DNA from: Chrysochromulina parva
Lineage: Eukaryota; Haptophyta; Prymnesiales; Chrysochromulinaceae
NCBI GenBank assembly: GCA_002887195.1
Contig: PJAB01000198.1
Location: 1 to 34,917 of the forward strand
DNA: 34,917 nucleotides
Direction: 5' to 3'
The first letter of the stretch is position 1, and each line of letters begins with the position of its first letter. The translations under genes and the position numbers were made by a program. Below are positions 2,947 to 33,552 of this stretch, piece after piece. The notes beneath the pieces were generated by a model. It had not been told where the DNA came from. It saw nothing but the letters and a program-made list of their open reading frames with translations, and did no database searches.

Positions 2947-4930
2947 CTACCCAGGATCGATTCGCGCACTGTACTCGGTCGTTGTGGCGTTCGTAGTGTA
3001 AACCAAGTCGGGCGAGCGCTCCTTGGCGCGTTCGATGCGCCAGCGCATCAAGCTGCCGATACAATGGCCAATGGCACCGATCGAGAGTACGACGACGAAG
3101 GCGACCGTGTTCTCCCATGAGGAGTAGAGATTCGTCAAAAGAGCGCTGACGGCAAAGCAGAACGGCAGCAAGCAGTAGCAGACGGCGGTCTGCACGCCGC
3201 CCGGCAGCTGGAAGGGACGCTCGACGTTCGGGCGCTGTACTCGCAGCGCGATGAAAGAGTACAGGAAGAGGCAGTGCGAGCATGCGAACAGCATCATCTC
3301 CACCTCGACGAGCGCCTCGAGGTGAAACTGATGAGGGAGGCAATCATGGGTCATCAGTGATCATCAGAGGTCATCAGAGCGCCTCAAGGTGCACCTGATG
3401 AGGGAGGCAATCCATCGCACTCAATGGCACTCGTTCATTCAATCGCAACGTGAGTCGCACAGCTGAGCGAAACAAGGAGCTATGCAGGAGCTATGCGTGG
3501 CCATCCGTGGCGATCTCCGGCACTCGAGATGAGCTCGGGATGATCTCCGGCATTCGAGGTCAGCTCGGGATAATCTCCGGCACTCGAGATCAGCTCGGGA
3601 TGCACCTGGGTCAGGCAGCCCGCAATCGTCGCGTTGAAGAGTACGTTGGCGCGCGACATGCCGCCGCCCTCTGGCTCGGTCTTCAGCCAGAGGGTGAGTG
3701 AAGCCAAGCAGCGTCGGTGCAGCATCGGGGTCTGCGCGGCCTGCAGCGGGGGCTCATTCATGCGGGGGGTGAGCCGCGTCGGCGGCGGGGCCTCTCGATT
3801 CAACGGCAGCAGGCACGTGAACCCAAGGTCACTCAAGTACGCTTGAACAAAGGCGCCGCACGAGCGCTCCGCCGCGATGACCTGCGAGTGGTACAGGCCG
3901 ACCTGCGCCATGTTCGCGCCAACCACGAAGAGCGTCTTGAGCCACAGGCCGGAGAGCTGGCCAGCGAGAGTTCCAAAGTAGCCCGCGTCGTAATGCTCAG
4001 TGTCGGGGTCGAGAGAGAGCGCGACGGCAAAGGGCATCACGTTGAGCGCGATGACGAGCGGCAGAAGGAATGCGACGACGGCTGGGTAGGTGTACTTGGG
4101 ATTTTCGACTTCACCCGCCATCGATCCGAGCGTCGAGAAGCCCGAGTAGAGCCACTGGAGTTCAACAAGGTGCCACAATGAGTCAGAGGGACAAGAGCAC
4201 TCAGAGGCACTCAGAAGCACTCATAGGTACTCAGAGGCACTCAGAGCTGCTCAGAGGCCCTCAGAAGCACTCAGAGGCACCCAGAAGCATTCAGAAGCAA
4301 TCGTACCAGCGCCCACGAGATGAGGAGAGCCCAGTCAGTCTCGCCTTCCATCGAGGTGAGCACCTCGGGCTCGAGCCGACCGAGACCGATGACGATGAAG
4401 ATGAGGCTCGGGGTGAGAGAGAGGAAGAAGACGACGCTTTGCGAGGCCGTCACCCAGTCGAGGCCCATGCAGTTGGTCACCGCCACGCAGACGACCATGG
4501 CCAAGCAGATCCCCTGCTCGCTGCCCAGCCCCAGTTGGAGTGCCTTGCTCACGTACTTAGCGGCGATCTGCGGGTACACCGCCGCGTCGAGCAGGTTGGT
4601 GAACCACACCCAAAAGCAGTTGTGGCCGCCGATGCGCGGCCCGCACGCCTCGGCCGTCCACACGACCTGACCGCCGTCCACCGGGAAGGCGGTGGCAAGC
4701 TCGGCCGTCATGAGTGCGTTCGGGAGCGCGAAGCAGAGTCCAGCGAGCACCGTCCAGAGGAAGACGATCAGCGGTGGCCCCGACGATACCATCGTCTCAT
4801 TGCCGTACAGGCCGCCCGAGACCCAGAAGAAGCCGATGACCACGAGCGTGCACACGCCCACTCGCTTTTTTGCCTCGCTCTCCGATGTCGGTAACAAAAC
4901 CTGCCGCTCGCCGCCAGGCGCGGGCATCAT
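2947..4930 (-). CDS. Polyamine/amino-acid transporter, APC superfamily, three exons
   Basis: Three phase-0 exons join into one transporter: 4930-4307, 4154-3606 and 3327-2947. The protein is 517 aa from ATG 4930. The frame is open up to 5059 without an ATG. The N-terminal half carries hallmarks of plant/algal polyamine-uptake (PUT-like) and LAT permeases: VSGGLYGNETMV in TM1, ALPNALMTAELATAFP, then DGGQVVW and ACGPRIGG. Exon 2 resumes with WLYSGFSTLGSMAGEVENP, a conserved APC segment. Exon 3 gives the last helices (EMMLFACSHCLFLYSFIAL and onward). Expected role: proton- or cation-coupled import of polyamines or amino acids across a membrane; substrate not predictable. Both introns carry short tandem repeats, and the second ends in the window-wide 3' module. 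A Pro-rich stretch in exon 2 (around 3700-3790) fits the family poorly and could be a further in-frame intron. Confidence 0.82.
3328..3605 (-). mobile_element. Introner-like intron, two stacked elements
   Basis: Transporter intron 2 (278 bases) is read on the minus strand from donor CAG/GTGCAT at 3606/3605 to acceptor CATCAG/TTT at 3328/3327. It holds two copies of the 3' module ATTGCCTCCCTCATCAG, ending at 3395 and at 3328. The 18 bases after the first module (3394-3377, coding VHLEAL) repeat at the start of exon 3 (FHLEAL) with 3 mismatches. Decamer-like TGATGACCTC units lie between them. The donor side also begins with a diverged version (VHPELI), extended into three 30-bp tandem copies. 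The layout suggests two successive insertions or duplications at one exon site. Confidence 0.75.
3512..3601. repeat. Three 30-bp tandem repeats inside transporter intron 2
   Basis: Three consecutive 30-base copies lie at 3512-3541, 3542-3571 and 3572-3601, each of the form (G/A)ATCTCCGGCA(C/T)TCGAG followed by a nearly constant half ending AGCTCGGGAT. They start within a few bases of the 5' splice site. On the minus strand the first copy still reads in the exon frame. Confidence 0.85.
4155..4306 (-). repeat. Transporter intron 1, made mostly of 10-bp repeats
   Basis: This 152-base intron runs from donor GCGCTG/GTACGA to acceptor CTCCAG/TGG. Read with the gene, most of it is about nine degenerate decamers of the form TG(C/T)CTCTGAG. 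This is close kin to the TGACCTCTGA units in the introns at 15509, 15804 and 19395. It lacks the TTGCCTCCCTCATCAG 3' module and shows no target duplication, so it may be an older or end-converted member of the family. Confidence 0.7.
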
Positions 4931-5052
4931 CGCGGATGCGGGTGCCGAGGCGGCGCCCGGGACGGCAGGCGCTCCCTCTGCTGTGGCGGCGACGCTCGCC
5001 GTGGCGTCCGCACCACCCGTGTGGTCAAGTTGGTCGACACTGACCCAAGACA

Positions 5053-5077
5053 AAGTCAAGTCAAGTCAAGTCAAGTC
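5053..5077. repeat. (AAGTC)5 microsatellite at the transporter 5' end
   Basis: There are five perfect pentamers. On the minus strand they lie between an ATG at 5083, which is in the transporter frame, and the open frame beginning at 5059. Five copies place a TGA at 5068-5066. A tract shorter by three units would leave the frame open from that ATG. Confidence 0.85.
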
Positions 5078-5083
5078 AGCCAT

Positions 5084-5435
5084 CAAGCTGGTAGTCCGGT
5101 AAAAAGACACCGGGGGGAGCCGGGACACACACGGTTGTACGGTACATGTAAAAAGACCCCCGGGGAGCCGGACACACATGGGACTTGGCACTTGGGGCGC
5201 TCACGGGCACCCGCGGATCTGACGGATCACACAGACGAAACTCACATCCCACAACCATATGCTCAAGACGCACGTGAACAGCGCGAAGACCGACTCCATG
5301 GGAGATTTCTGAGCAAGTTCGAGATCAAACAGAAAGAAGTCGACTTTTGACGATTTCGAGATTATTTGTGGTCCAATTGCGCGTTGTCTCTCCGATGTGT
5401 CTCCTAGTATTCTAATCAGATTACGCAGTCCAACT
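5084..5435. promoter_or_regulatory. Divergent intergenic region with a 30-bp direct repeat
   Basis: This region separates the transporter (-) from the homeodomain gene (+) and should contain both promoters. It carries an imperfect direct repeat: 5101-5132 and 5150-5179 both read AAAAAGAC, then a C/G run, then GGAGCCGG and GACACACA. AT-rich DNA follows at about 5310-5400, just ahead of the homeodomain ATG. Binding sites cannot be assigned from the sequence. Confidence 0.4.
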
Positions 5436-7380
5436 ATGGCGAGCGGCTTGGCTGCCCCGAACTATGGAATGGCCCCCTGCGGACGCGTGCGCGTGCAGCC
5501 CGCGAGCCCTCAGCTCCTGAGCGCCGTCGACAATCCCTCGTCCACCATCGGTGGGCGCTGGATCATCTCGTCGTCGGCGCTTTACTTGCTCGAGCAAGTG
5601 TACAAGATCGAGAACTACCCCTCACTGCACATGCGCCAGCGGCTCGCAACGGACTTGGAAGTATCGCAGCGGCAGGTATTTGCGCGCGCATGGCCGCCCG
5701 TGCGGCCGGGCTCCCTTCCCCCTCCCACTTGCAACCGGGAGATCTGCAACCGGGGCTCCGCAGATCTCTCCCTTACCGTTGCTGTCCGTGCTTGCCACCC
5801 CTTCGCTCGACGCGACGCAGATCCAGGTGTGGTTCCAGAACCGGCGCCAGCGCGACCGCAACCTCATCAAGGCGTCCGAGAAGCTCTCTCCCAAGATGGA
5901 GTCGTCGGGGCTGCGCCTCGGCGATGCGAGCCGCTCGGCCAAGGACGGCGATGAGTCCATGGAGAAGGACGAGGCGAGCGACCACTGTGATGCGGGCTCG
6001 GACGCGTCGGGGGCGTCGCACTCGCGGGCCAAGAAGGCACCGTGCGCCTCCGACAAGACTCCGACGAGCGGCCACTCGAGCACGCCTTCGTCATTGGCCT
6101 CCCCGTCGCAGGAGCTCTCGCCGCCTTCCAGCCCGGGCCATCTCACGGAGCACTCGCACTCCCGAAAGACCGTGCCGTCGTTGCAGATGGCGCCACCGAC
6201 GGCGCGACCGTGGCAGACCCTCGGGCTCTTGCCCCTGATGCCGCAGCCAATGGGCAATCGCTCCTCGGCTGCGCATGCAAGTGCTCACCACGGCGCCGGC
6301 CCGTCGTCTTCTTCCGCTGAGCGCGCGACCCACGCCGAAAGGGGGGTCGCGAGGGCGGGGGCCGGCCAGTCGTTCAGGCCGTCCCTGGCATCGATGCCCG
6401 CGCCCCCGCTCCCAGGCGTACCGTCGTGGGGCGCCCCCCCTCCGCAGGCCGGCATCGGCGGAAGCGCTCGCCCCAGCGCTCGCCCCTCCCTTCTCACCCA
6501 AGGGTTGGGACTTGAGCCCTCAGTGGCCGCCGCGCTGCCCAATGTGGCAGTCTATCTGCAGCACATTGAGCGGCTGCAATCGGCCTATCTGCGCCTCGGC
6601 AGCGGCGTGAACGCGCCTAGCCTTGAGGGCGCGGCGCCGCCACTGCCTCAGCCTTCGGAAGCGGCGCATTCCACACACCCGCTGCCTCGTCTCCCCTCTT
6701 CCTCCGTTGCCGCCTCGCCGATGCCGCTGCCGACCAACCCGCCCTTCTTTTCCACCGCCCTTGGCACGCCTCTGTTCGATCTGCCGCTGTCCCAAGGCAT
6801 CCCGGGCCTGTGGGGTGGCTACCCTCCTCCGGCGTTGAGTCTGGACCCGTCGGTCTTTTACAATTTGCACATGTCGGACCTCTCGGCGCACGTCCTGCGT
6901 GCTCACACTGCAGCGCTCTCGCAGGCCTTTTCGGCGCCCCCCCTTTCGATCCCCCCCCTTTCGATCCCCCCCCTTTCGAGCCTCCCCCTTTCGAGCCTTC
7001 CCCTCTCGAGCCCCCCAATGGCCACCGGCACCGCGATGCCCGCCCCGACCGCTTCCTCGAGTTTCCCGTTCCAACGGTCATCGTCCACGATGGACGACGC
7101 ACCGGAGCTGGGCAAATGCTTCAAGAAGCCGCGCAGCAACACGGACCCCTCCCCGCAAAACTATGCGCGGGCCACCTCCGTCGACGCGACCTCCGCGACC
7201 ACGTTCGAGCAGCCCTCGACAGAGACCTCGGCCATCGGCTCAGATTATGGGACCAACTCGAACGACCTGAACGTCGACCAGGCCTTCGACTGGCGCGGCG
7301 CCAACAGTATGATGGACCTGGACATGGACCTGATCATGGGCATGGCGGGCGTGGTCGACTCGAAGGTGGCCGTCGTCTGA
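5436..7380 (+). CDS. Homeodomain transcription factor, two exons
   Basis: Exon 1 is 5436-5675 and exon 2 is 5821-7380, both phase 0, giving 599 aa. The 145-base intron (CGGCAG/GTATTT to GACGCAG/ATCCAG) splits the homeodomain just before the recognition helix. Joined, residues about 40-99 form a full homeodomain. Helix 1 is SSSALYLLEQVYKIENYPSL, followed by MRQRLATDLEVSQRQ and the recognition helix IQVWFQNRRQRDRNL with invariant W84, F85, N87 and R89. It should bind DNA in the nucleus. The long remainder is Ser/Pro/Ala-rich and probably disordered, with an acidic segment at about residues 115-135. Near 6937-7016 a 15-bp repeat codes LSIPP/LSSLP units. The C-terminus is Asp/Met-rich (NSMMDLDMDLIMGMAG), which resembles an acidic activation region. 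No second domain is seen, so the homeobox class is left open. Confidence 0.9.
6937..7016. repeat. 15-bp tandem repeat in the homeodomain gene
   Basis: About five copies of a CCCCTTTCGATCCCC-like unit, drifting to CCCCTTTCGAGCCTT. In frame they code the LSIPP, LSSLP and LSSPP series, so copy-number change would be frame-neutral. Confidence 0.8.
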
Positions 7381-8392
7381 GCCGCAGGCTCGCGGGACTG
7401 AATGCCACAAGAGAAACGCCAAAGGCCCGCCGCCTTCACATGCATGCTGGCGGCAACGCGGCATCATGTCATAGACGTAAGACGAAAGTATAGCGCTGAG
7501 CCTAGAGGCCCTGAGCGGGCCCGGCGTGTGTAAGTTCTATTGAGATTCCGGAAATGACGGAAATGACCTGCTGTGTCCTGCTCTCGTGAATCGGTTTCGT
7601 TCAAGCTTCAACCCCGTGCGGTACCGGTCGACCATGCGGTCGTGCCGGGTCGAGGCAGCTGAGACCTGAGTGCCCTGACACCTGCGGACTGTGCACAGAG
7701 ATCAGAGTCTCACAGAGCTCTGACACTTTTCGTGTTTCGACGTGGATCTTGGTTCTATCTCGTCTTCTTGTTGGCTTGGTGTTGGTGGCTGGTGCCGCCG
7801 CTCCGCCTGTTTGCTGTTATCCGCCTGTCCCTGTGGGCTGTGGCTTTACTGTGGCTGTCGGCTGTCGCGCTGTGCGCTGCGCCTCGAGTCTGCCTCGTGT
7901 GGACCGGTCGGGGATCGTCGGTCCTGGACAGGAGCCTGCTGTGGGCCTGGTGTGTTTCGTTTCTCGCGCGTGTGCCAGTCCCCGCCCTCGCACGTGGGTC
8001 GCACCGCACACCAGCCCCGCCCTGGTGAGGGAGGTGAACACGAAACGTCAAATGAGGACAACCTCAGCCAGGGTACGGACAACTCCGCGCGGTCGAAACG
8101 GGTCTTACACGGGTCTCCGGGGAGGGTCGAGGGATTGAGCCCGCCCGTCGCCGGGGATTTGTTCGTCTGATTCGTCCGCGGCGCGTCAGAAACGAAGAAA
8201 ATGAAACCGCGAGCAGCCAGATCGCGAGTTTGGAAGTGAGAAGTGCACGAGCTGGACTGCCCTCTCCTTCCTTCGTTCATCCTGTGGACGTGTGCACGCA
8301 TCTCCGTGCCCACTCTCGAGCGACGTCCAAGACAGACGGTACAAAACGCGCCTACTACCGGCTCGTCCGTCCGCGCAAATTTATCCGTTTCG
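7381..8392. other. Intergenic region, no supported gene
   Basis: About 1 kb. A G/T-rich stretch at 7740-7900 gives hydrophobic open frames in two plus frames, but they lack an ATG and have low-complexity Leu/Trp/Val composition. The minus-strand frame through 7846-8409 also starts at a non-ATG codon. The right end presumably holds the promoter of the gene at 8393. Confidence 0.4.
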
Positions 8393-9699: not shown

Positions 9700-12040
9700 A
9701 TGTTGACCCAGCGAGCCATACCGCACGTGCAGCCGCTGCTGCCCTCTGGTGCCTCCACCAGCCCGGGCGCAACGCGGCTCGCCGTCTCGGAGAGCATGCA
9801 CGTCATCCTCGTCGCCAAAGGCCATGCCATCGACTGCTTTGACCTTCAGATGTCCTTCCTATGCACGGCCCGGTTGCCTTCGCCGGCTGTCGAGCTGAGG
9901 TTTTCGCCGCACGACTCTAGCCTCCTCGCTGTCGGGACGGCTGCCGGCGATCTGCTCCTGATGCGCCTCCGCCGGGCGCCAGCGGATGGGCAGCTCGTGC
10001 TCTTCCACATCTTGCAACAGTGGAGCATGCGACCCGACGCGGCTCCGCTGACGGCCGCCGCGCCGGCCGATGTCGTGCGCTTCCACCCGTCACGTGACGA
10101 CCTCCTCGCAGTCGTCTGCAGTGGCCAAGTGCGCCTCCTCAGCCACGGCCTTGGCAAGCTCGCGATCTCTTCGCCTTGCTGCCGTGTGGATGACGACGGC
10201 GCTCACGACGGCGCCAACGCCACGGCGATCACCTGGTGCGGCTCGCTGCTCGCTGTGGGCCGCGCGAGCGGCGCCGTGCACCTCTGGCGCGTCGACGTGC
10301 CGCAGCGCTCCGACACACGAGCGGGCCTCGCGCTCGAACTGCCCCCCGGGGCGCAAACTCTCGTGAGCGTGCTACCAGCGCCTCCCACACGTTCGTCAGG
10401 CTCGTCAGGCTCGTCAGGGGTGCGCTGCCTCCGCTGGATGCCCTCTGAGGTCGAGGGGGAGGCCGAGGGCTCCGCGGGCGTGCTTCTCGTCGGCGACGAA
10501 CCCAGCCGTCTGCGAGCCTTCCGGCTGCCCTCTGCATGGTCCACCTCGGCGCATGGAGCCAATGGCGCTCAGTTGCTGGCCAACTTGCCTACTGGTCCTC
10601 TGCCCGGCGCGAGCGCCTTGGCGCACGTGAGCGAGCCGCTCACGCTGGGTGCGCACGTCGGCGGCGAGCTGCGCGCGACGATGCGCGCGTGCGCGACGAG
10701 GCTCAATGAATTTGACGAACCTCGGCGGCCGGACGATGTGACGAAACTTCGCACCTTCGAGGTGAGCCACCCTCGCTGGCTTCTGCTATCCGGGCCGGGC
10801 TCGCCATGCCTCTTCGCGATGCCCTACGGCCAGCCGACGACGGCGGACGCGCATCCCGCCCAACACGACGCGCATCATCCCGCCGCCGCGGCGGTACGCT
10901 TTCCGACGCCGACGGAATTGCTGTGCGCGCCCAACGTCGTCCTCGAGCCGCCGCCGTGCCACGTGTACGGCCTGCACCGGATCGCCTCTCGCGACTGCCG
11001 TGCCCGGGTCCATGCACGGATGATGGCCTCGACAGAGAGCCTGGCGGAGCCCGACACGGCGCCCAAGATGCCCGACACGGCGTCCATGAAGCCCGACACG
11101 GCGCCGACCCATCTTGGAGAAGGCACGGAGCTGCTGCTCGTGTTGAGCGACGTCGCGCTCCACGTCGTCCAACTGCGCGCGGACCCGGCGGGCGTGCTCA
11201 CGACGGCGCGCCACGCGTCCGAGCCGACCGAAGGGCCCAAGCTGAAGCCCAAGATGCCCGGCACGGCGCCACCGCTGGGGCGCGCGCCGCCGCGGCCGCC
11301 GCCGCCCGCACGTCCAGAGAAGCCGTACCCACAGCCGCTGGTCGCCCACCTGCTACCCGCCGCGCCTCGTCGGCCAGAGGGGCCCACGACGGCGCCCGTA
11401 ACGGCCGGCCGTGAGGCGTCGGCGCGGCCAGTTGTGTCCACGACGGCGCCCGTAACGGCAAGCCGTGAGGCGTCGGCGGTCGTCGACACCCACGACGGGC
11501 TCGTCCCCGGGTCGAATGCTGCCCTGCTCGCTCAGGTGACGAGCTGCTTGCGCCCGATTGCATGCTGATTGCGCCCCGATTGCATGCTGATTGCGCCCTG
11601 ATTGCATGCTGATTGGGCCCAATTCGAATCTGCCCGCGTAGGTGGCGGCTCTGGAAGCGCGCGCGCGCGGTGCAGAGGCCCGCGTCGCCGAGCTCCAAAC
11701 CTCCTTCGATCTCTTCATGGCGCAGAGCCAGCAGCAGCAGCAGCTCCTGCTGGTGGCGCTCGAGACGGCGCTCGAGAAGATGGCGGCCGAGCGCCGTCTC
11801 GGGCGCATCTCCGCCGTCGGGGCGGCACAGGGAAGTGCACCCTACGACTCCGAAGCGTTTGCATTCACACCTCCCGGGTCCCGTCAGCGGCAGGGGCGCC
11901 CACCTGAGGCGTCGTCGTGGGCGGCCTTGGATTCGTCAGACGATTCAGAGCTGTCGCCATCGGAGGCGTCGAACGAATCGGAGCCGACGTCGGCGCCCAT
12001 CTCCCCCACGCCCGTCGCGCGCATGCAAAATGCACGCTAA
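9700..12040 (+). CDS. WD40-repeat protein with C-terminal coiled coil (EDC4/Ge-1-like?)
   Basis: Exon 1 is 9700-11535 and exon 2 is 11642-12040, phase 0, for 744 aa. The frame is open upstream to 9586 but without an ATG. The N-terminal part shows beta-propeller repeats: VELRFSPHDSSLLAVGTAAG, VVRFHPSRDDLLAVVCSGQV, ITWCGSLLAVGRASGAVHLW and VRCLRWMP. A low-complexity middle follows (PDTAPKMPDTASMKPDTAP, Pro-rich). The splice joins NAALLAQ to VAALEARARGAEARVAELQ, making a continuous coiled coil that ends in an acidic Ser-rich tail (SSDDSELSPSEASNESE). Propeller, linker and coiled coil is the layout of EDC4/Ge-1, a scaffold of mRNA decapping, but the match is architectural only. The 106-base intron holds 22-bp repeats. 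The stop codon lies in a diverged repeat copy, so the natural C-terminus is uncertain. Confidence 0.68.
11536..11641 (+). repeat. WD40-gene intron with 22-bp repeats
   Basis: The intron runs from CTCAG/GTGACG to CGCGTAG/GTGGCG. It contains three to four head-to-tail copies of a 21-22-base unit, TTGCGCCC(C/T)GATTGCATGCTGA. The piece TGCATGCTGATTG also occurs just upstream of the 3' module in the methyltransferase intron at 33063-33075, which links this intron to the same family. It does not end in the TCATCAG module. The donor-side bases (GTGACGAGCT) only weakly resemble the next exon (GTGGCGGCTCT). Confidence 0.75.
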
Positions 12041-14566: not shown

Positions 14567-14734
14567 ACATCAGCTGGTGCTCACGTCACGGGGTCCACCC
14601 AGAATTGGAAGTGTGAAATGATGCCAATTGTTAACACCACTCGGCGCTCTGAACGGCGCTCCGATCTGATTTTCATGAGGACGGAACTCTTATCGCTGAA
14701 CGTCGCGTCGACGTAAAGCACACCATAGCACCAC

Positions 14735-16002
14735 ATGGGCAGTAGTAGCAGCACGCCGAGTACTCCGGCAAAGGTGCTCCCGAGCCCACGGCAGTCGCTT
14801 CCGAGTCCACGGCAGGCTCCACCTCCGAGTCCAAGGCGGGCTCCACTACCCTCCGAAAGCAGCAGCAGCAGCAAGGCTGGAGCGCCGCCGCCGACGACGA
14901 CTCCGCGGCTGGCCCCGCAGGAACTGCTCCTGCGGCTCGAGGGGCCAAAACTCGAGGCCCCACTCGAGCGGCTCTCCATTGCCGAGCTCCGTATCTTCAT
15001 CGAGGTGGCCGAGCTCCCTATGCCCGAGGGCAAGCTCGAAAAGGCCGACTTGGTGACTCGCGCGAGGTGTCTCGGACCGCTAAGTGGCCTGCGGCCAGCG
15101 CAGCTCAAGCGGCTGATTGAGGCGACGGCGCACGAGCACTCCGGCTGCGTCGAGAAGGCCGAGCTGATCGCGTGCCTGCTCGCGGCCATCGAGGCCGGAG
15201 GCAAGGCAACGACGCGGGAGCGGCCCGTGACGGACGAGCACGGACTCGAGCCCGGCAAGAGTAACTTTCGTCTGGCGGCGCAGGAATGGAGCGAGCGCGA
15301 GCGCGAGCTGGCCGACGAGATGGCCGCGCGCGCGCGCACGGCGGCCGAGCGCTACCGTACCGAAGAGACGCTCAAGGCGCGCGCGATGCTCGCAGCTGCC
15401 GAGGTGGAAGAGCAAAAAGAGGCCGAGGAGCGCGAGGCGGCGGCGGCGGAGAGGCGCTGGCTGCAGGAGCGCAAGGTGCTGCTGCAAGTGGAGGCAGCTA
15501 ACCAACAGGTCAAGCTGCTCGAGAAGCGCCTCGCCCTCTAATGACCTCTAATGACCTCTGATGACCTCTGATGACGCCCTTGATTGCCTCCCTCATCAGG
15601 TCAAGCTGCTCGAGAAGCGCCTCGCCCTCGAGCATGAGCAGCAGAAGCGTCAGGCCGCCGAGCGCGATCATCTCGAGGCGAAGCTACGAGAGGCAACCCA
15701 GGCTACTGTGAGGGCGCACGCCTCGGAGGCAGCCCACGCGGCCGAGTCGCAGATTACGCGCCTGCAGCTCGAGGACAACCAGCGCCAGATGGAGCAGCTG
15801 CAGGTGCGGATCCGGCGCTCCAAGGGAGGGCCGCCTGATGACCTCTGATGACCTCTGATGACCTCTGATGACCTCTGATGACCTCTGATGACCTCTGATG
15901 ACCTCTGATGACCTCTGATGACCTCTGATGACCTCTGATGGCCTCCCTCATCAGGTACGAGCAGTCGCTGTGCCACCGCTCGCCGTTGGGCTTCCATGCT
16001 GA
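14735..16002 (+). CDS. Myristoylation-motif coiled-coil protein with SAP-like helices, three exons
   Basis: Exons are 14735-15508, 15600-15803 and probably 15955-16002, giving 341 aa. The protein begins MGSSSSTP, a good N-myristoylation motif (Gly2, Ser6), followed by a Pro/Ser spacer with LPSPRQ repeats. Two helical modules follow at about residues 78-160 (LSIAELRIFIEVAELP with EKADLV, and LRPAQLKRLIEAT with EKAELI). They resemble SAP or MANF C-terminal modules. From about residue 185 a long Glu/Ala/Arg coiled coil runs across the first intron (AANQQ/VKLLEKRLALEHEQQKR). It may be a membrane-tethered scaffold. After exon 2 the conserved acceptor puts translation in a frame that stops 15 codons later. 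The sulfotransferase frame downstream is reached only by using a poor acceptor at 15964. Confidence 0.68.
15509..15599 (+). mobile_element. Introner-like intron with a perfect 30-bp target duplication
   Basis: A 91-base intron (AACAG/GTCAAG to CATCAG/GTCAAG). Its first 30 bases (15509-15538, coding VKLLEKRLAL) are identical to the first 30 bases of exon 2 (15600-15629). The remaining 61 bases are about four TGACCTCTGA-like decamers followed by TTGATTGCCTCCCTCATCAG. If the intron is retained, translation stops at the TAATGA junction. This is the cleanest and apparently youngest member of the family. Confidence 0.85.
15804..15954 (+). mobile_element. Introner-like intron with ten perfect 10-bp repeats
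   Basis: A 151-base intron from CTGCAG/GTGCGG to CATCAG/GTACGA. Positions 15841-15940 are ten perfect copies of ACCTCTGATG, followed by GCCTCCCTCATCAG. Unlike its neighbour, the donor-side sequence (GTGCGGATCCGGCGC) does not match the start of the next exon (GTACGAGCAGTCGCT). The coding frames on the two sides also disagree in phase. Confidence 0.82.
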
Positions 16003-18711: not shown

Positions 18712-19087
18712 GAGAGAAATAGAAAACAGACGCTGATGACAATGCTGTACGGGTAAGTAAGACTCTGTGCGAGTGGCGAGCAGACTAGAGGCTTTCAAGT
18801 CGCACTTTCATACCACACCCAGGACTGGGTACGGCCTCAAAAAGGAATCACAGCCCAGGCGTCCTCCAAACTTGCTGCATCGTGTGCTCTGAACTGGACG
18901 GCATAGGTGCCCAAGTTGCAGCCAGCAGAGCAAGGCGCCCCGCCTGTGTTTGTAAGCAACGGAGCCGAGGCAGGTGTGGGCATGCGTGGCATGCGGTCAC
19001 ACGATCCTTGCCTTGCCTTGCCTTGCCTTGCCTTGCCTTGCCTTGCCTTGCCTTGCCTTGCCTTGCCTTGCCTTGCCGTGGCGTCTC
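18712..19087. other. Convergent intergenic region
   Basis: 3' regions of the membrane-protein gene (+) and the aminopeptidase gene (-). The main content is the (CCTTG) array described separately. No gene is supported. The open frames across the array are repeat translations (ARQGK and LPCLA series). Confidence 0.5.
19006..19075. repeat. (CCTTG)14 microsatellite
   Basis: Fourteen perfect pentamers followed by one CCGTG variant. In the sense of the aminopeptidase gene it reads (CAAGG)14 and begins 12 bases after that gene's stop codon, so it should be in the 3' UTR. Perfect copies imply recent expansion and likely length polymorphism. Confidence 0.95.
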
Positions 19088-20517
19088 TCATTTCTTTGGC
19101 TTCTTCTTGGGCGCAGCCTGGGTGCTAAACCCCCTCGCGGCCGATTTCGTGGCCGACGGCGGGCGCGCAGGCGCGGCAGCGGAACCAGCAGCCTGGTCAG
19201 GCGCGGCGGATGAAACTGCAGCCGAAACGGTCGAGCTCACCGGCGCGCTGCCCTGGACGCCTGTGTAGCTGGGCTTGCCATCGAGCTCCCAAAAGAAGGG
19301 ATTGGACGTGGGCAAGCGGCCGGTGAAGGCCTCCACGCCCGTCTCCGTGATCAGGAGCGTATGCTCGAACTGTGCCGACCGTTTGCCGTCACGCCTGCCC
19401 ACCCACGCACGCGAACTCGGCACATGTTAGAGGAGTCGTAATCAGAGGTCATTAGAGGAGTCGTCCGGTCGCAATCGTATTTGCTTGCGCTCGCGTCGCG
19501 GGATGAGGCGGCGCGGCGTGCTCACGTGGTGGCCGTCCACTGATCGTTCCACATCACGTGCTGCGAGGTGCCCTCGCAGATCATCGGCTCGATCGTGAAC
19601 ACATTGCCGACCTGCATCCGACCTGGCTCGCTGTTGCGCACATGAAGGATGTTGGGGCTCGTGTGAAAGACTTTTCCAATGCCGTGTCCACAAAAGTCGC
19701 GATTGGATGAGTAACCGTACCTGCGGGCGGCGGCGGGCGATGTGGGGGACGATGAGGGTGGGGGGGCATCCTGCGCGTCCGCTGTGGGACACTCCGTGCG
19801 CGCGACGCACGGTTTGACGAAGTCCTCAATAATCTTGCCGATGCCGCTGAAGGGCTGGCCCGGCTTGCAGTACTCGATGGCTGCCTGCCAGCAGTCGTGT
19901 GTGACTTTGACGAGCTGCCGCCCCGCCTCGTCCACGTTGCCCACCAAGAACGTCTCCGAGCAGTCACCATGGTAGCCGCCAATGTAGCATGTGATGTCGA
20001 TGTTGACGATGTCGCCGTCCTTCAGAACGGTCGAATCCGGAATCCCATGGCAGATGACCTCGTTGATAGACGTGCAGCATGATTTGGGGAAATTATGGTA
20101 GTTGAGCGGGCTCGGATAGGCGCCACGCGCGATCGTCTCACGCGTCACAAGCTCGTCGATCGCGTCGGTCGTCATGCCTGGGGCCACCATCCGCCCGGCT
20201 GCATCCAGCACCTCACGAGCCACGCGGCCAGCGATACGCATGCCCGCAATGTCCTCGGCCGTCTTCACCTCCACCTGCCAGGGGAGCAAGGACCCCTTGG
20301 CTTTCGGGCGCCCGTCATCCGCATAGTCTGGTCGCAGAATCGTGCTCGGGATCTTCCGCATCGGCGATTGCTTCCCGGGTCGCACGCTGCCCGTATAGGG
20401 GAACGTATCAATCATGTAAGGAGCCACAGCGACCCGCAGCGAGCCCACCGACGGCAAGGCAGCCCGCCCGCCACGAGCAACGCTGCCAACCAGCGCGCTG
20501 AAAAGGGCCGTCATCAT
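19088..20517 (-). CDS. METAP1: Methionine aminopeptidase, type 1
   Basis: Exon 1 is 20517-19526 and exon 2 is 19394-19088 (phase 2), giving 432 aa. It removes the initiator Met from nascent proteins. All five metal ligands are present: D174 (NID), D185 (YHGD), H278 (CGHG), E310 (TIEP) and E341 (QFEH). H157 (CHGIP) is also kept. The stretches [20 protein letters not shown] and [15 protein letters not shown] fit eukaryotic MetAP1 closely, and the latter confirms the splice. The linker [10 protein letters not shown]...LRPDYAD is that of cytosolic MetAP1, but the usual Cys-rich zinc-finger N-terminus is absent. It is replaced by a hydrophobic/Arg leader ([20 protein letters not shown]) that looks like an organelle transit peptide. 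An Ala/Pro/Ser insertion of about 25 residues sits at 241-265. The tail is Ala-rich and ends KKKPKK. Confidence 0.92.
19395..19525 (-). repeat. Aminopeptidase intron with decamer remnant
   Basis: A 131-base intron from ACCAC/GTGAGC to GGGCAG/GCGTGA. Internally it contains CTCTAATGACCTCTGATTA, one to two of the 10-bp units seen in the introner-like introns. It has neither the TCATCAG module nor a target duplication. It may be an old member or a chance match. Confidence 0.6.
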
Positions 20518-30200: not shown

Positions 30201-31584
30201 CCGTGGTCGGTGTCTCGGGATCACGCCGTAGGAGATCCATATTCATGAGTAGCTGCCTAGCGGCAGCGGGCGTGAGGCAGCCGCAAGACGATGCGCACAT
30301 GGAGAGCATGAAGACTGGAATGCGTTGGCACTCTCCCTTTTGGGCCCACGCGGCGCAAGGCATGTCCTTCGCGTCGGTGCATCCCTCTGTCTTCGGAGTG
30401 ATAGTGCTCGGCGCATCGACCGAGGTCGGCAAGTTGAGATCAGAAGGCTCTGCCTTGTCGCCTGAGGCTGGCTTGGTGGAGCTCGGCGCATGGACGGCGG
30501 TTGGTGAGTGCAAGTCCGACGCGTTCCCCACGGTTGGCTTGGCCATGGACGGCGCATAGACCGTGGTTGAAGGTGCGTGCAAGCCTGACGCGTTCCCCAC
30601 GGTTGGCTTGGCCAAGGTCGGCGCATGGACCGTGGTCGGTGCGTGCAAGTCTGACGCGTTCCCCACGGTTGGCTTGGAGCTCGGCGTCTGGACCACGGTC
30701 GGTGCGTGCAAGCCTGACGCGTTCCCCCCGGTTGGCTTGGCCGAGGACGGCGCGGCCGAGGACGGCGCATGGACCGTGGTCGGCGCGTGCAAGTCTGACG
30801 CGTTCCACACGGTTGGCTTGGTGACCATCTTCGCCGGTGCCAGCGTGGGTGCTTTCACGACCGTTGCCGTTTCCGGCGTGGGTGCTTTCACCACCGTTGC
30901 CAGTGCTGGTGTCGGTGCGGGGGCTATCGTGGTAGGTGCTTTGAGGTCCGTCTTGTCCTTCGACGTTGGTTTGGCCAAGACCGGCTTGGTCGCACTCGGT
31001 GCATGGGCCGTGGCTGCCGGTGTTTTAGAGACTGTCTTATGCCCCGAGGTTGGCCAAGCACCGACCCGAGGCTCATTGAATGAAGCGTCATTGTGCGACT
31101 CGCACTCTGCACACTTGCTGCACGGGATAAAGCTGCACTTGACCTCCAATGCCCCTGTGTGTTCCGCGCACCACGAGCTGCACCCGTCTTTCGACTCACC
31201 TGACGTCGGTCTGGTCGAGCTCAGGCTCGAGCTGGGAGCAGGAGCGGATACGCCGCACGACACAGGGCAATTTGAGTGCATGTAGACCGGAATGCGTTTG
31301 CACTCTCCTTGTTTGGCCCACATGGCGCATGGCACGTCCTTGTCATCGTGTCCGTACTCATCCTGCGAGGTCTTTTTGCGGAGGTCTATCGTGGTGTCGA
31401 AGATCACGGAGTCCGTCGTGGGCGTCACGGAGTATCCTGCTGCCGAGGAGACCATGCACGCCATGACGCAGGCCAAAGCGGACACATTAGCTCGCCCACG
31501 GGCAGTCTGGCGCGCTCGCGCTCGATACGGTCGATACGACGCGGTGGTCGTGACGGCGGTCGAGGACAGCGTTGCATTGGCCAT
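21247..31584 (-). CDS. Giant multidomain secretory protein: ShKT, GT8, three sulfotransferase-like domains, GH-A-like barrel
   Basis: A single 3445-codon exon from ATG 31584. Approximate residues follow. 33-52: hydrophobic segment after a basic head (signal peptide or anchor). 80-110: ShKT 1 (CAMWAKQGEC, CPVSCG). 200-540: Thr/Ala/Pro spacer of 22-residue repeats (KPTVGNASDLHAPTTVHAP) interrupted by ShKT 2 (about 400-438). 550-920: GT8-type glycosyltransferase (LFLCDDDIVV DXD site, WNFGLSRVNL, LHWSGRNKPF). 975-1330: sulfotransferase-like 1 (YSGAEWFLELLDETPDV, KIVELIRWNLLDRCL). 1432-1700: Cys/Gly/Lys repeats of about 36 residues. 1797-2070: sulfotransferase-like 2, degenerate. 2130-2450: sulfotransferase 3 with an intact HHVPKTGGTT loop and MRDILPHRVSF. 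2585-3170: GH-A-like barrel (VVRWSEFEPSPDKFNW). Then a jelly-roll-like module (FYVGYDSLDG, RWRELTFPID). 3283-3315: ShKT 3. It should act in the Golgi lumen or outside the cell on sulfated polysaccharide. Activity of each domain is unproven. Confidence 0.88.
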   Translation of the reverse strand: MANATLSSTAVTTTASYRPYRARARQTARGRANVSALACVMACMVSSAAGYSVTPTTDSVIFDTTIDLRKKTSQDEYGHDDKDVPCAMWAKQGECKRIPVYMHSNCPVSCGVSAPAPSSSLSSTRPTSGESKDGCSSWCAEHTGALEVKCSFIPCSKCAECESHNDASFNEPRVGAWPTSGHKTVSKTPAATAHAPSATKPVLAKPTSKDKTDLKAPTTIAPAPTPALATVVKAPTPETATVVKAPTLAPAKMVTKPTVWNASDLHAPTTVHAPSSAAPSSAKPTGGNASGLHAPTVVQTPSSKPTVGNASDLHAPTTVHAPTLAKPTVGNASGLHAPSTTVYAPSMAKPTVGNASDLHSPTAVHAPSSTKPASGDKAEPSDLNLPTSVDAPSTITPKTEGCTDAKDMPCAAWAQKGECQRIPVFMLSMCASSCGCLTPAAARQLLMNMDLLRRDPETPTTVQTPSSKPTVGNASDLHAPTTVHAPTLAKPTVGNASGFHAPSTTAYAPTLAKPTVGNESGLHAPTAVYAPTLAMPTAGHKTDLNSPTNKQRTTVVIMSDRFEAVVVAIGSLFMNSPESDIDVWLIGDMQREAKGNVSLLQRLNAALQPQAPEQTISVMGIDEATALLEEDGVTPVWKWPQFGSLGADQDQDHKPETVLRPEPWDYDNMHHDPFNLIRFYLPYLGPFRELDSLFLCDDDIVVQKSISTLEVPMGDGPIIAATCNGWLWAEDCMRNEPYYNGKGWLDYPATYLGKDKAHGYSGCTKKASESGNRICQKDEFAETVMRWSKKFNGKELIPADQPRWNFGLSRVNLTEWRKQNMTHVFDSYMRANYEAKLIPETSLAFGLGIPFFAFADKIKCWNDVVGDPAFVDGLGYISKADLSLNNLNASEVLGQATVLHWSGRNKPFDPQSEMELELYKPFDDVQEYYVGRSQKLYAKGSELKTQQIVAPESGLHAIVRQTPDASKQSTRSLLYADPYSGAEWFLELLDETPDVCASGSTGNPTVAFAGESFIPPHFEAVQNAIPVCAQKRACLWSFIAQNVPRYVEQRHSWCPHTRRGGGEVGTLDLFDTTLDLFEIHDMHGQMLCSWADRLQTMYPNRTSYSDLGGIQTLWNLYEHNVFSMATDLVPCTQACGFKPVRMLKFMRAWAQPMMNGSEPAYSWRDNGDAPKMFVGDFAGEHCHGEALPGGGCDGSESYLPTINWDAYKIVELIRWNLLDRCLAQTEFAIGINEDPTFTTQSSNVETGDVDLDDLLRCMRYSSAQRDADLLRLNVFSGERLADWMTLPYEMCSMPSHIQGCVDAAAAHVNEQAFRIVERPHSVATATEQAHMTSTSALVEDLKRRRWRRSKGNQLETRRRVSVQGDGGETQPDSVRSMPTIDADWLSKYQEDSLHSARVPERIFAQEHAERTDGDHFVTALQRYIRAPPPPPIKRVASSRQCCLEGLSTFQKCLLKGIPVCCKPWDQACLRMQAGGGIDPVTGKYVPGPNFDPKYDPTKVGPPPAGWRAPPAGKTYSYDDDDENGGGRKKCKKGQPCKAGEDGDTYSYGDEAGGGGGKKKCRDKKGKVIPCPAAGEGEEGDTYSYGDEAGGGGKKKCRDKKGKIIPCPAAGEGEEGDTYSYDENGGGKKKCKDKKGKIIPCPAAGAGEEGDTYTYDENGNRKKCIPKPGKPCPVGEGGAGEEGDVNGGRKKPVAGGGEGEEGDEDENGARRRSPPPSGSPGSEGSPDDGSRAPRAPSGAGYGFHGFTRRTIRRGTVLELAAADVEHGRTSRSSRWLGVANAEQLSAGLIHAGFATFIQPIYCFAWEVHADGNEIAKYLAKLPEQYIVPGSSASTAFNARVFKDEFDEEVDARTHALIAFGQVDDATWVHKVRAATSRPVVLLGLMRDVLAHRVQLFYSDDARRHMAERSSSTFVKAMLHSWMQSGEYPRDAQLEYMYGLNATLRELPIDDVWKARNASAVASGVDVDNIAPAASVYVGPVGDAQNVRRSLCVFAHSTSLPIPWLQYETAVDSASSTVPSKLLAHVDEDIAAAMLAMEPREFYYVARALDTFEAFAEEYGCLEEPTEAALLTPKYGAGPLTYRSSTIVKDSIGGATSVNTFSGDDISDTVENPTPTAVALPRKPFTGSSPSDYPLYYFHHVPKTGGTTLSDYLMQLPRQYKVPGSERSGAFNVSIFRRAEDEVAMRRNCLIAFSHMQVRSFMDVIRRSKLADRKIEVIFMMRDILPHRVSFFHEMIGPEAHGHDQADLDAGKTVARPYVDFATWAAKDIDPEMAQVAWLTNHSHETEDFAPVATAECIKDQNCRDPKMDSFQLRPLYKLNFAWANVPIQEVHEQLHAEHPLESCAPFAATDGQENEVLFRHCPNATADVGLALIGHLSLMRETLCLIDHMLGVPVPWNGVAHQGMNWRFKKLRPMDAESSFDSSSANELLSRESRELIFNSMTKSKLMEQAAIYHCGPPPPPPAVEPPSTIIPPWDGAAVWEYHTEYAVKRVAAETAKPTCGEKSSVTSAEAKAEVALLSTCDPESCLVMSTGCGSRPECQGCGSLCLGEHNNAEDSSVWSLDGLGTGLSVYGTDPIGTVKAAENRSMWRNVNLVVRWSEFEPSPDKFNWAAFDSLLLDITKRSVPFAVGITFLSGPNYYPQWLFESPFNVTKYAEVCGHRRYVVSDGRVDEATCNETAFAVPNFHDVTYLARYKRAHMALAAKLDDMRVINSQLRLLYLQASIGTGVQNTPVYFHPIRTEADYVWTDSQGRSTPVDASWNRCGSCEFDAFAPPRNSSLDQFWCPSGATVRGLIVSRRPAFEKYAQDVTACLFNDVYASHREDAGLRLMVTSDDVKTWVNLANGFNTAGQTAKRMEDAQMFTNEWIDTNAPGTWLMRNKEGEGAGLSGERTRVAHSILKTYRVTEDGPVRARADLDKYWCWTGEEGSRGQLGAEPVAPSCLMQNWHLYAVAMWALTTRIDYWNIPLTVAKQQLTGTGFDGVWRFLNRYSGVRWSWQSPGAWVGFRDGLDTLDNERFPEPEFGALPENWRTMSLRASQSPESKELLASRQRTICDSFATNGCRIEIDESTDAGKIALAHGNGTNDVNLDVWRSDYGMFMQRRDTTGSVGYWWQGPEDQMYGRYSRGFANPQSTVELVLDQGLWGGLPLTAPRVHLTLRLVFLDNAVGQFYVGYDSLDGPRGWVVDTKGTSRWRELTFPIDDGRFARGDGSGPNGADVWLRDMSQCVSWTAADCAQKPTLFDSLEVVEGSYDESLVDPVQLAVEDHHVLPATPAPSILATSAPCHWGHDSTDVPCAEWAKQGECKKLIEFMHAKCAASCGCPAPKFDRGSSLISTAPDHKMALEPSPEPSPEPVEDPTPESGSGDGWQEPFIDGLIPDAVRSTSTTTMTRTITALSVKPSSGDAAGLLAHARRPSRRKSTWLWKQSHALMPDGDDAPVAATELEARAGR
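26530..27020. repeat. Cys/Lys/Gly 36-residue repeats in the giant gene
   Basis: Four to five copies of a unit of about 108 bases. On the minus strand it codes GDTYSYGDEAGGGGKKKC followed by a charged DKKGKIIPCP and an acidic EGEE hinge. Each unit holds two Cys about 12 residues apart. Copies differ in Gly count and by Asp/Asn changes. The unit length is a multiple of three, so copy number can change without frame loss. Confidence 0.85.
29980..30835. repeat. Mucin-like 22-residue repeats in the giant gene, in two blocks
   Basis: Units of about 66 bases at about 29980-30235 and 30465-30835, either side of ShKT 2. They code KPTVGNASDLHAPTTVHAPTLA-like segments (22 residues). Each has an NAS N-glycosylation sequon and many Thr, Ala and Pro residues, as expected for an O-glycosylated rigid stalk. 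Adjacent copies are nearly identical at the DNA level, which suggests recent homogenisation. Confidence 0.85.
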
Positions 31585-31864
31585 TGCTTCCGAGCCCAGA
31601 AGGAATCGGCACGATCAGGCTGGCAGCGAGCGAGTGTGAGGCGCTCCGCCTGAAAAATGCGGGCCTTATTTGGGTCGTTTTCAGGTTGTCGTCCCGATAA
31701 GGAAAGACATCTGCATGCAGTAGAGACAAATTAGTGGCGCTGACGACTGACGACAAATCCCGTGCCTTACCATAGATTCCGAGTAGGCGTCCGAATATTA
31801 ACAGGCCAGATCACCATGGTTCACACATGGCCAGGAGAGACCCAAAACGCGACCCGAGAAGAGC
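31585..31864. promoter_or_regulatory. Divergent promoter region, giant gene / methyltransferase
   Basis: 280 bases separate the two ATGs of head-to-head genes. Both promoters must overlap or adjoin here. The middle (about 31660-31800) is AT-richer than the surroundings. No element can be assigned with confidence. Co-regulation of a glycan-modifying giant protein and a methyltransferase is a reasonable inference. Confidence 0.45.
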
Positions 31865-33552
31865 ATGGCGACAGAGGTACCTGTGTCGGCCCACGTGCTG
31901 TGGGCCGTGGTATCTGGCTGCGTCGGCTTTCTGCTTGGTCAGCACGTCATGCTATTCTCGCCTGAGGATGGGCATCGTCGTCTCGACCAAAAGCTGCCAT
32001 CCACATCAGAGTCGCTTGAAGTCCTGCAAGGCCGCCGCGCAATTGCCATCCTGAAACGTTGTCTGAATCTGCGGCCGACAATGTATCGGAACGTGGAGGC
32101 ATGGCTTGATGCACACAGGGCGGTTCCTTTTGATGCACCGTACTATGATAGAGGTCGAGCCTGGGTGCCGCCAAAGAACGTGACCATAAGAAACCATCCC
32201 GTGTTCATCGGGTCCGAGCAGCTGCAAGCTGCGTTTATTGCCATGCACAACTTCATGTGGGTTGGTGGCCTGCTGCCAATATCGCCATGGGGCCATCGCC
32301 GAGGGTCGTGGGAGCTCGACGAGAGCATCATTGGGCGTTGGGGCTTCACCCGCTACTTTGAGGACATGGCCAGGATCGTGCCGAGTGGTGCGAGGTGCTT
32401 GAGCTGGGACGAGAAGCACGCAAAGCTCGTACCCGCGTGTGACCCAGCCAAGATCTGGACGTTCTCGTACCACGGGACGAAGAACGCTAAAAAGTCCATC
32501 GTTCGGGTCAACGAGGCAAAGCGCATCTTGGGATCGGAGTGCGCTCCGCTCGCCACTCACGAGAGTGAAGCACATGCCGCCTTTGCAGCGCTCGAGCATT
32601 GCTGCCGGACGGCCTGGGGTGGCGCTGCGTTGGCCGCCGTATGCTGCGTTGGGGGGCTGGCCGCCGTGCAGCTGTGCAGCCCTGCTCACGTGCGTGTTCG
32701 GACTTGCGTGCAGTCTGGTGGCCATCTCGGAGCATCCTCGAGACTTGGCGAGATTTGGGGCGAGATTTCGAGACTTGGGGCCCTTCCTTTCATCCTTCGA
32801 CTTGGTCGTGTGCAATCAGGTGTGCAGACTGAGCACCTTCGCTGAGCTCATCCCCTCTGCGTGGCTGTGCTGCTTGGGCTCCGTCCTTCACCCTACTCCG
32901 CGTCCAACCTCTGCACCCGCCCTATCGACCCACCGCGTGCGATGTACAACCAATTGTCGACAGGTCTTTGAGCATGTGAAGGACCCGTTCGCAGCCGCGC
33001 GTGGCCTCTTCCAGCTGGTACGGCCGGGTGGTTTCGTCTGCTGGCCGGCCCCGTTCCTGAGTGCATGCTGATTGCCTCCCTCATCAGGTACGTCCGGGTG
33101 GTTTCGTCTTCTGGTCGGCCCCGTTCCTCGAGCGCTTCCACTTTTCGTACGAGGCGGGCGACTACTTCCGGTACACGTGCATGGGGGCGCAGGAAATCTT
33201 AACACAGGCCGGGTTCGAGATCGCCGATGTGAAAAAGGTGGGGGATTCGCATATGGCATCCGCCTATCTGCTGGGCTTGGGCGTAGGCGACATACACCAG
33301 GAGCACCTCCGCCATGCTCTAATTTCGAACTTCAGTGCGAAGCAGGACGACCACTCGGATAAGCAGTGGCTGTCCATCTCGTGCGTTCTCGTCGCGCGAA
33401 GGCCCGTTGATGGCATGGGCAATTGGAGCGACGTGCAGGACGACAATATCTTGCGGGCTGCGACAGCGAACGTGCAGCAGTTGCCGCGAGAGTGGAAGCC
33501 GCTCGTCAACCTGTCGAGTGCCAACCGCCGCGTTGGCACTGTTCTACGTTGA
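31865..33552 (+). CDS. Membrane-anchored class I SAM-dependent methyltransferase, four exons
   Basis: Likely exons are 31865-32564, 32773-32819, 32964-33017 and 33088-33552 (421 aa). The last two introns are firm. The first junction is my best fit (donor GAGA/GTGAAG, acceptor TCGAG/ACTTGG) and is uncertain. A membrane anchor lies at about residues 9-31 (HVLWAVVSGCVGFLLGQHVM). The core WGFTRYFEDMARIVPSGARC is followed across introns by SFDLVVCNQ/VFEHVKDPF and LFQL/VRPGGFVFWSAPFLERF. This is the motif II to III region of the Methyltransf_11 type. The classic GxGxG motif I is not obvious; GARCLSWDE may take its place. It probably methylates a small molecule or sugar in the endomembrane system. 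It is divergent from the giant glycan gene. Confidence 0.75.
33018..33087 (+). mobile_element. Minimal introner-like intron with 41-bp target duplication
   Basis: A 70-base intron (CAGCTG/GTACGG to CATCAG/GTACGT). Its first 41 bases (33018-33058) match the first 41 of the next exon (33088-33128) at 38 positions. Only 29 bases, ending TGATTGCCTCCCTCATCAG, are element. There is no decamer array. Retention would add a premature TGA. The exon copy keeps the family-like VFWSAPF, while the intron copy reads VCWPAPF, so decay is on the intron side. Confidence 0.85.

Follow-up and report, generated by a model that had tools for sequence, protein, structure and literature searches.

How new spliceosomal introns originate is a long-standing question, and it is posed by the 34,917-nucleotide stretch of Chrysochromulina parva DNA analyzed here (contig PJAB01000198.1; the window), in which introns of unrelated genes end in the same short sequence. 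Where does this shared 3′ end come from, and how did it enter these genes? A preliminary description had proposed an introner-type mobile intron family and placed its 3′ module in introns of an amino-acid transporter gene (twice), a coiled-coil gene and a methyltransferase-like gene. A motif search bore out these positions: the window holds four exact copies (two on the minus and two on the plus strand) and one TGGCC form, the variant that had been noticed as the second module of the coiled-coil gene. At ≤3 mismatches it contains 8 matches versus a mean of 0.38 over 100 shuffles. The prediction of hundreds of copies genome-wide also held, with 867 exact copies of the 16-mer in the 45-Mb assembly to which the window belongs (reversed control, 0) and 3,366 sites within 3 mismatches of the 21-mer (control, 0). 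Chance was ruled out as the source of the module by the shuffles, the reversed controls and the mismatched pairs described below. A generic sequence was rejected as well, as a 19-mer of the module gave 3 matches, about the chance level, in 257 Gb of prokaryote genomes; searches of viral contigs returned 0, 1 and 0 matches, and an Rfam search of the window matched no family. The genes hosting module introns hold differing Pfam domains. The family therefore has the hallmark of introners, similar introns in many non-homologous genes, and we examined 122 clusters of its copies.

The module core, CTGATTGCCTCCCTCATCAG, reads as a branch site, a pyrimidine tract and CAG, in other words as a portable 3′ splice site. 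The element carries this splice site only (CTGAT, pyrimidine tract, CAG). Decamers repeating its CTGAT half often lie in front of it. That the element corresponds to just the 3′ half of an intron is a point absent from the preliminary description.

The layout is seen most plainly on the plus strand of the window. In the methyltransferase-like gene, the intron at 33018..33087 consists of a 41-bp copy of the next exon start (33018..33058; 3 mismatches, score 32) and a 29-nt element ending in the module TTGCCTCCCTCATCAG (33072..33087), and is followed by the duplicated exon start itself (33088..33128). Coiled-coil intron 1 (15509..15599) has the same organization: a 30-bp copy at 15509..15538, identical at 30/30 positions to the exon start at 15600..15629, provides the GT donor, and a decamer array (15535-15575) leads to the same module at 15584..15599. 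On the minus strand, the first transporter intron had to be redrawn as a composite at 3328..3605, with boundaries CAG|GTGCAT ... CATCAG|TTTCACC read from the sequence and two exact modules (3395-3410 and 3328-3343). Between them lies GTGCACCTTGAGGCGCTC (3377..3394), a diverged 18-bp copy (score 9, 3 mismatches) of the exon start TTTCACCTCGAGGCGCTC at 3310..3327.

Other introns in the window share only parts of this layout. The second transporter intron (4155..4306, minus strand, boundaries inferred by eye) contains about 10 decamers at 4197-4299, without a module or a clear exon-start copy. Coiled-coil intron 2 (15830..15954, plus strand) has 11 decamers (15835-15945) and the variant module (15939-15954), with no exon-start copy. 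The start first given for it, 15804, was rejected when the first spliced model had stops in exon 3; because the downstream frame must stay open, the start was placed by eye at about 15830 (GGAGG|GCCGCC), making this a GC-AG intron by frame. Decamers thus fill three of the introns for which they had been reported, while the fourth, a methionine aminopeptidase (MetAP) intron at 19395..19525 on the minus strand, showed only a few decamer-like words in a repeat scan; database protein P0002, 91% identical overall, contains its join. The remaining intron (11536..11641, plus strand) carries a GATTGCATGCT array, found by sequence reading and repeat scan, and ends in CGCGTAG, which is not the module; an exon-start copy is unconvincing by eye. 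Its 11/22-bp array at 11543-11620 contains TGCATGCTGATTG, which also occurs upstream of the methyltransferase module, as had been noted. The gene had been labeled WD40, but a Pfam search found no domain in its reading frame.

Is the duplicated exon start a general property of the family? The 122 clusters, drawn from the 867 exact copies, comprised a complete set of 77 from 100 listed places and 45 that were chosen for a non-G next base (13), a following GT (16) or the pattern CTGATT...GGTA (16, from 20 stretches). In 81 of the 122, the start of the next exon recurs upstream, so that the element lies between two copies of the downstream exon start, compared with 2.6% of 1,208 mismatched pairs; this duplication, too, had been predicted. 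The proportion was 49/77 in the complete set and 13/16 in a later set (B). No copy reached the threshold in the other 41 clusters, of which 4 have offset copies by eye (L077, L098, L099 and L123), and copies shorter than 9 bp fall below detection. The family carries one splice site and recruits the other from the target duplication: the 81 upstream copies begin with GT in 58 cases, GC in 11, GA in 2 and other bases in 10, and the bases directly after the 867 exact modules are GT in 559, GC in 121 and non-G in 135. As judged from the sequence, the upstream copy can act as a 5′ splice site, and excision of copy plus element would restore the exon.

Copy lengths, scored in 54 clean cases out of 78, took 24 distinct values between 10 and 45 bp; the element part spans 29–199 nt in 38 single-module cases. 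These figures bear on the idea that the family is a classical DNA-transposon introner, or MITE, with a fixed target duplication. Such an element would account for similar introns genome-wide that bring their 3′ site along and take the 5′ site from the duplication, as the available part of PMC9860276 describes for Symbiodinium, and the module does begin and end with a 5-bp inverted repeat (CTGAT/ATCAG). However, the duplications vary in length, some stacked copies at one site differ, and the element has no constant 5′ end. A fixed duplication of 3-9 bp, the length given for introners in the same part of PMC9860276, was not found here, where copies below 9 bp are undetectable, and instead of an inverted repeat terminating each end of the element there is only the 5-bp repeat within the 20-nt module. 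We therefore consider this origin very improbable. A hairpin formed by the module was also rejected, as the common form reaches only −1.3 kcal/mol.

About as improbable is that tandem genomic duplication across an intron-exon boundary accounts for all copies. The layout is that reported for the potato RdRp intron (PMC4974935, from the portion available), and units are equal in 7 of 45 stacked clusters, which may be of the tandem-duplication kind. In the 54 clean cases, however, no module-like intron end was found immediately upstream of the 5′ copy, and the 3′ module therefore came from elsewhere.

The preliminary description held that the module is always in the sense orientation of its host gene and that its copies are intronic. 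Reading-frame length hardly separated the two orientations (median 187 aa for sense and 167.5 aa for antisense, 54 introns), so codon scores were adopted instead. By these, 101 of the 115 clusters that could be used (out of 122) are sense, and confident calls number 21 sense and 0 antisense. The rule thus holds broadly, with an exception: one exact copy, L079, lies antisense within a kinase-like exon. As for intronic location, in 7 of 10 genes a Pfam match spans the predicted join, and predicted joins occur in database proteins of two genes (P0121 and P0123 for one, P0241 for the methyltransferase-like gene). Read-through forms are also present among the database proteins, P0242 being that of the methyltransferase-like gene. 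Besides the exonic L079, another exact copy, L072, sits past a stop codon. From the predicted joins and Pfam continuity, removal of the introner is predicted to leave the mRNA of these genes unchanged. One database protein appears to represent an empty allele and 36 of 74 exon-start copies are perfect, which together support recent activity of the family, in line with the proposal.

Sense orientation and insertion at AG|G sites would also be expected if intron RNA were reverse-spliced into mRNA and the product then reverse-transcribed and recombined. This route predicts a conserved intron 5′ end and no exon duplication; it fails in clusters with copies and is refuted for the 81 copy-bearing clusters by the duplication and the non-constant 5′ end. 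For the family as a whole we find it scarcely credible.

More can be learned from the junctions. Of 70 non-element-like matches, the duplication begins exactly where the module ends in 52 and no more than 2 bases away in 59; no tail separates module and exon in those 52. The element 5′ ends, by contrast with this exact 3′ end, differ among copies by eye, and 5′ junctions show microhomology (0.89 vs 0.38 bases, p=2.7e-6; 63 of 74 junctions). At the 3′ junction, 33 of 55 cases (out of 78) share 0-1 base, and 2 of the 55 match at position −4. Since copies were sought by their CATCAG ending, that shared end is built in. At coding sites, exact ends could arise from selection for working introns alone; the two copies that bear on this account are L072 and the stacked L074. 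The 15-bp copy of L072 begins with CC, and an ordinary donor therefore did not fix that end; the copy in L074 starts with AA.

The reading that we consider probable is that short mobile parts of introns make up an introner-type family and that they spread when primed copying inserts them at staggered nicks or breaks. Target DNA would be opened by two nicks roughly 10-45 bp apart, and the G|GY side of the target would meet the 3′ end of the element. Synthesis would then proceed into the element for a variable distance, the other end would be joined to the target through a few bases of microhomology, and gap filling would leave a duplication of variable length. Every insertion would regenerate an AG|G junction, and insertions can therefore stack. 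Stacked copies may be unequal (11 and 23 bp in L008, for example); 14 stacks were scored as different, several of which differ in unit length only and not in copy length. Identical stacked units are probably later tandem duplications.

What served as template? The exact 3′ end suggests one that ends at the intron AG, and excised intron RNA would be such a template; switching between DNA templates is about equally likely. In the DNA-only version, repair of the MMBIR or polymerase-theta-like type would let a strand that has broken or stalled copy part of the exon start, switch by microhomology into an existing introner elsewhere, copy to its end and return to the exon start, and selection would retain the splicing products alone. 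We hold this to be possible, though less likely than not. It is consistent with the 5′ microhomology, with the unequal stacks and with an excess of C at −3 of AG target sites (11/22 vs 123/469 exonic AG|G, p=0.025), which may mean that CAG microhomology also plays some part at the 3′ junction. Local patches point the same way: in 2 of 78 introns, against 0 of 780 controls, a stretch of at least 13 bp recurs in the same gene. In L110, intron 2 shares a 20-23-bp patch with the exon 153 bp upstream, and a 19-bp stretch of intron 3 recurs 501 bp downstream. Such patches are rare, and local templates were rejected as a general source. The near absence of shared bases at most 3′ junctions argues against template switching, as do the exact 3′ end outside coding sequence (L072) and the dominance of a single 3′ module though other introns also end in AG.

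Non-LTR retrotransposons and SINEs leave target duplications of variable length, with an exact 3′ end and a variable 5′ end showing microhomology. The present family has variable target duplications, an exact 3′ end and 5′ microhomology as well, but lacks an A-rich or LINE-like 3′ tail, a splice acceptor standing at its end instead. Were excised intron RNA copied by target-primed reverse transcription, with a host or LINE-type enzyme, this would explain the constant 3′ end with its variable 5′ extent, the variable duplication with 5′ microhomology, the sense orientation to the host gene and L072. Against it, a reverse-transcriptase search of the 45 Mb gave just 5 RVT_1 matches, barely above the cut-off, there is no RNA tail, and no donor 5′ end was recognized in new copies, the one 23-mer traced genome-wide (from the L072 insert, ≤3 mismatches) occurring only there. 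We regard this route as slightly less likely than the DNA-only one. Slightly less likely again is its fullest form, in which RNA of excised spliceosomal introns would pass straight into nuclear DNA through target-primed reverse transcription, only the 3′ half moving and the duplicated host exon making the 5′ half; the family would then be a retrotransposing spliceosomal half-intron.

The primed-copying reading favored above implies that a 3′ splice site of about 20 nt would suffice to found an intron if its insertion duplicates the exon start, and the lengths of the products give a direct reading of the minimum intron length. The shortest of 53 clean introns totals 67 nt; L072, left out as it lies past a stop codon, totals 60 nt and is the minimum of the full 54-case set. 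Shorter totals excluded beforehand were the module-to-module matches L066 (23) and L075 (21) and the stacks L074 and L105 (61 each). Copy and element lengths trade off in the 37 single-module introns (rho −0.52), for which random pairing kept the 67-nt minimum in 0 of 20,000 trials. The family opens a new way to study intron birth: copy length, the two junctions, stacked repeats and a probable empty allele keep the individual events legible at many sites of one genome.

Comparison with known systems places the family among introners, most of which spread by DNA transposition according to the part of PMC9860276 available to us. The Symbiodinium microadriaticum introners described there have 4-bp duplications and terminal inverted repeats, whereas here the duplication is 10-45 bp and variable and the 5′ end inconstant. 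Introners of a Chrysochromulina sp. (TARA MAG) in the same source are also from a haptophyte and also listed without terminal inverted repeats, but it is the 5′ splice site that they carry, and their duplications measure 4 bp; the 548 introner families of that survey may include the present one. Amoebophrya introner elements (PMC7789003, in part) likewise are repeated introns with boundary direct repeats, of only 3-5 nt, and have inverted repeats of 8-20 nt. Intron gain at staggered double-strand breaks in Daphnia pulex gave variable-length exon-end repeats on the far side of the gained intron; these are 4-12 bp, and the portion of PMC4202315 at hand describes sources for few inserts and no family with a constant 3′ end. 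For 213 introns of all classes, direct repeats that measure 4-30 bp (mean 11.4) and lie at the intron borders or close to them were read as insertion scars (PMC11782384), but those introns are of mixed class, their repeats agree at 71-100% and in some cases lie off the border, and no shared element appears in the accessible text. The potato RdRp intron (PMC4974935, in the part available) similarly combines an exon-start copy as donor with an intron 3′ end comprising branch site, pyrimidine tract and acceptor, yet arose by a single local tandem event, whereas the 3′ part here is a dispersed family. We conclude that the family is a variant of the known introner phenomenon, set apart by its variable 10-45 bp duplication.

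Pattern searching confirmed the positions given for the module TTGCCTCCCTCATCAG in the window in the preliminary description, and the genome-wide search that it had proposed recovered 867 exact copies in the 45.07-Mb assembly to which the window belongs (as contig 198), versus none for the same pattern read backwards. These copies were followed by GT 559 times, by GC 121 times, and by a base other than G 135 times. When the 21-mer form was searched with up to three mismatches, 3,366 sites were found genome-wide and none with the control, and a 30-base stretch of decamer array gave 617 genome matches, overlapping registers counted in. The decamers are themselves variants of the first half of the module (CTGATTGCCT, CTGATGACCT). 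Among viral contigs in IMG/VR, a lone 17-mer match was seen (contig L144, 4669–4685), perhaps by chance.

In the 102 clusters of the first set, conservation extends back to a CTGA at positions −20 to −17 (C in 72, T in 90, G in 96 and A in 100). The branch-site consensus is YUNAY. Because the conserved CTGAT agrees with it, and because the single match to U2 snRNA in the genome contains GTAGTA, the 20-nt module appears to be an entire 3' splice site. Its two ends, CTGAT and ATCAG, are also inverted repeats of each other; the corresponding hairpin is weak for the TTGCC form (−1.3 kcal/mol) and stronger for the TGGCC form (−6.1 kcal/mol).

Related modules no more than 150 bases apart were merged into clusters, of which 122 were scored (106 in set A and 16 in a later set B), and an upstream copy of the downstream exon's first bases was counted at a score of at least 9. 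Such a duplication, which the preliminary description had proposed to score, was found in 81 of the 122 clusters (68/106 in set A and 13/16 in set B), while mismatched pairs reached the same score in 2.6% of 1,208 cases. It was likewise present in 49 of the 77 clusters that make up the complete set from the 100 module places listed. An offset-free search of cases that were not element-like placed its start exactly at the module end in 52 of 70 and within two bases in 59. The upstream copy opens with GT in 58 of the 81 clusters, GC in 11, GA in 2 and some other dinucleotide in the remaining 10, and is directly preceded by G in 67. Over 74 introns the gapped duplicated length had a median of 24 (range 10–65), and ungapped copies were perfect in 36. 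No exon-start copy reached the threshold in 41 of the 122 clusters, although an offset exon copy was seen by eye in four of these.

Judged from sequence, the module-bearing segments are introns. By a codon score with 96% accuracy on its own training sequence, 101 of 115 clusters are sense to the host gene (confident calls: 21 sense, 0 antisense), as had been held for the window; a plain comparison of ORF lengths was uninformative for orientation. An exact antisense module was observed in frame (SDEGGNQ) on the minus strand near position 1500 of L079 (contig 442 of the window's assembly), within an apparent coding exon labeled kinase-like by eye, in a gene that also has a sense introner with a ∼33-bp exon-start copy. 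In another stretch (L030), a variant module lies in the opposite orientation upstream of the first cluster, flanked by an apparent duplicated stretch of its own. The best Pfam match spans the predicted join in 7 of 10 joined proteins (UCH, Aldedh, U-box, Chromo, TPR, RRM and class-III aminotransferase) and does not in the other three (Arm, trigger-factor and C2). For the aminotransferase (L111), the predicted join is present in database proteins P0121 (99% identical) and P0123 (98%), and P0122 is a read-through of the intron. P0124 has KVLDILERDGL here, in which the intron's exon-start copy is fused directly to the remaining exon, as an empty allele would give. The join predicted for the methyltransferase-like intron of the window is present in P0241 (93% identical overall), and P0242 continues through the module. 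The records for both genes may stem from DNA or RNA.

In 54 cases lacking a module-like end upstream, the copy was 10–45 bp long, with 24 distinct values, which is hard to square with a transposase of fixed duplication length. Reverse splicing would give no duplication at all, yet one is seen, and tandem duplication alone offers no source of the module where the site had no earlier intron. Primed copying into a staggered opening is the explanation left. In it, the target would be nicked at G|GY, with a second nick ∼10–45 bp away; the element's 3' end would be set at the first nick and its other end sealed at microhomology. At the 5' junction, microhomology with the element's expected preceding bases averaged 0.89 bases versus 0.38 in controls (63 junctions, p = 2.7e-6). 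At the 3' junction, 0 or 1 base was in common in 33 of 55, with position −4 matching in only 2. Where several units are stacked at one site, copies can be unequal (11 and 23 bp in L008; 27 and 8 in L096); among 45 such stacks, the units were equal in 7 and fewer than two exon copies were present in 24. In L072, a 45-bp insert lies between 15-bp duplicates ∼40 bp beyond a stop codon. The duplication starts right after CAG, but with CC as its first bases, and its end was therefore not picked by an ordinary donor; the insert includes a GTGAGT that might be used.

The template for primed copying may be excised intron RNA, which is favored by the exact ends and by the asymmetry between the two junctions. 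Alternatively, it may be another DNA copy of the element. Favoring DNA are the few reverse-transcriptase domains (5 matches barely above the cut-off), an excess of C at −3 of AG sites (11/22 versus 123/469, p = 0.025) that runs counter to the low 3' junction sharing, and local patches common to an intron and its own gene. In L110 (positions 1–1601), a single coiled-coil gene has three introners, two of them with patches found elsewhere in the gene: a patch in intron 2 is identical to an exon lying 153 bp upstream, and a 19-bp stretch of intron 3 recurs 501 bp downstream.

The shortest of 53 clean introns was 67 nt (L072, at 60 nt, excluded), and the copy traded off against the rest of the intron in 37 single-module introns (rho = −0.52, p = 0.001); none of 20,000 random copy/rest pairings kept the 67-nt minimum. 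A new intron seems to persist only once copy and element total ∼65 nt.

The best named relatives of the window's methionine aminopeptidase include those of Prymnesium parvum (67%), Calcidiscus leptoporus (65%) and Emiliania huxleyi (55%), and on this single gene the host is therefore probably an uncultured haptophyte. The window also holds three 30-bp tandem repeats in the composite transporter intron (3512–3602), pure pentamer arrays (AAGTC)5 at 5053–5078 and (CCTTG)14 at 19006–19077, and a single 3,445-aa open frame (21247–31584) that matches ShK and glycosyltransferase-8 and contains internal repeats of 66 bp and 102 bp. In a homeodomain gene (5551–7380), the ORF holds only the domain end (positions 38–57 of 57); the domain seems to be split near 5677–5820 by an intron whose end is not the module.

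Among the titles and abstract openings listed by a literature search, none described this introner form, a coverage that does not establish priority. In published accounts, repeats or duplications are given as 3–9 bp for introners (PMC9860276), 4–12 bp for Daphnia introns (PMC4202315), 3–5 nt for Amoebophrya (PMC7789003), and 4–30 bp close to the borders of 213 mixed introns (PMC11782384). A single tandem duplication event is reported to have given the same final layout as that of the introns here (PMC4974935). A Chrysochromulina introner family is described as of opposite design to a Symbiodinium type that brings its 3' site and recruits its 5' site (PMC9860276). The latter has the same carried and recruited layout as the present introns, but its duplication is 4 bp, versus 10–45 bp here.
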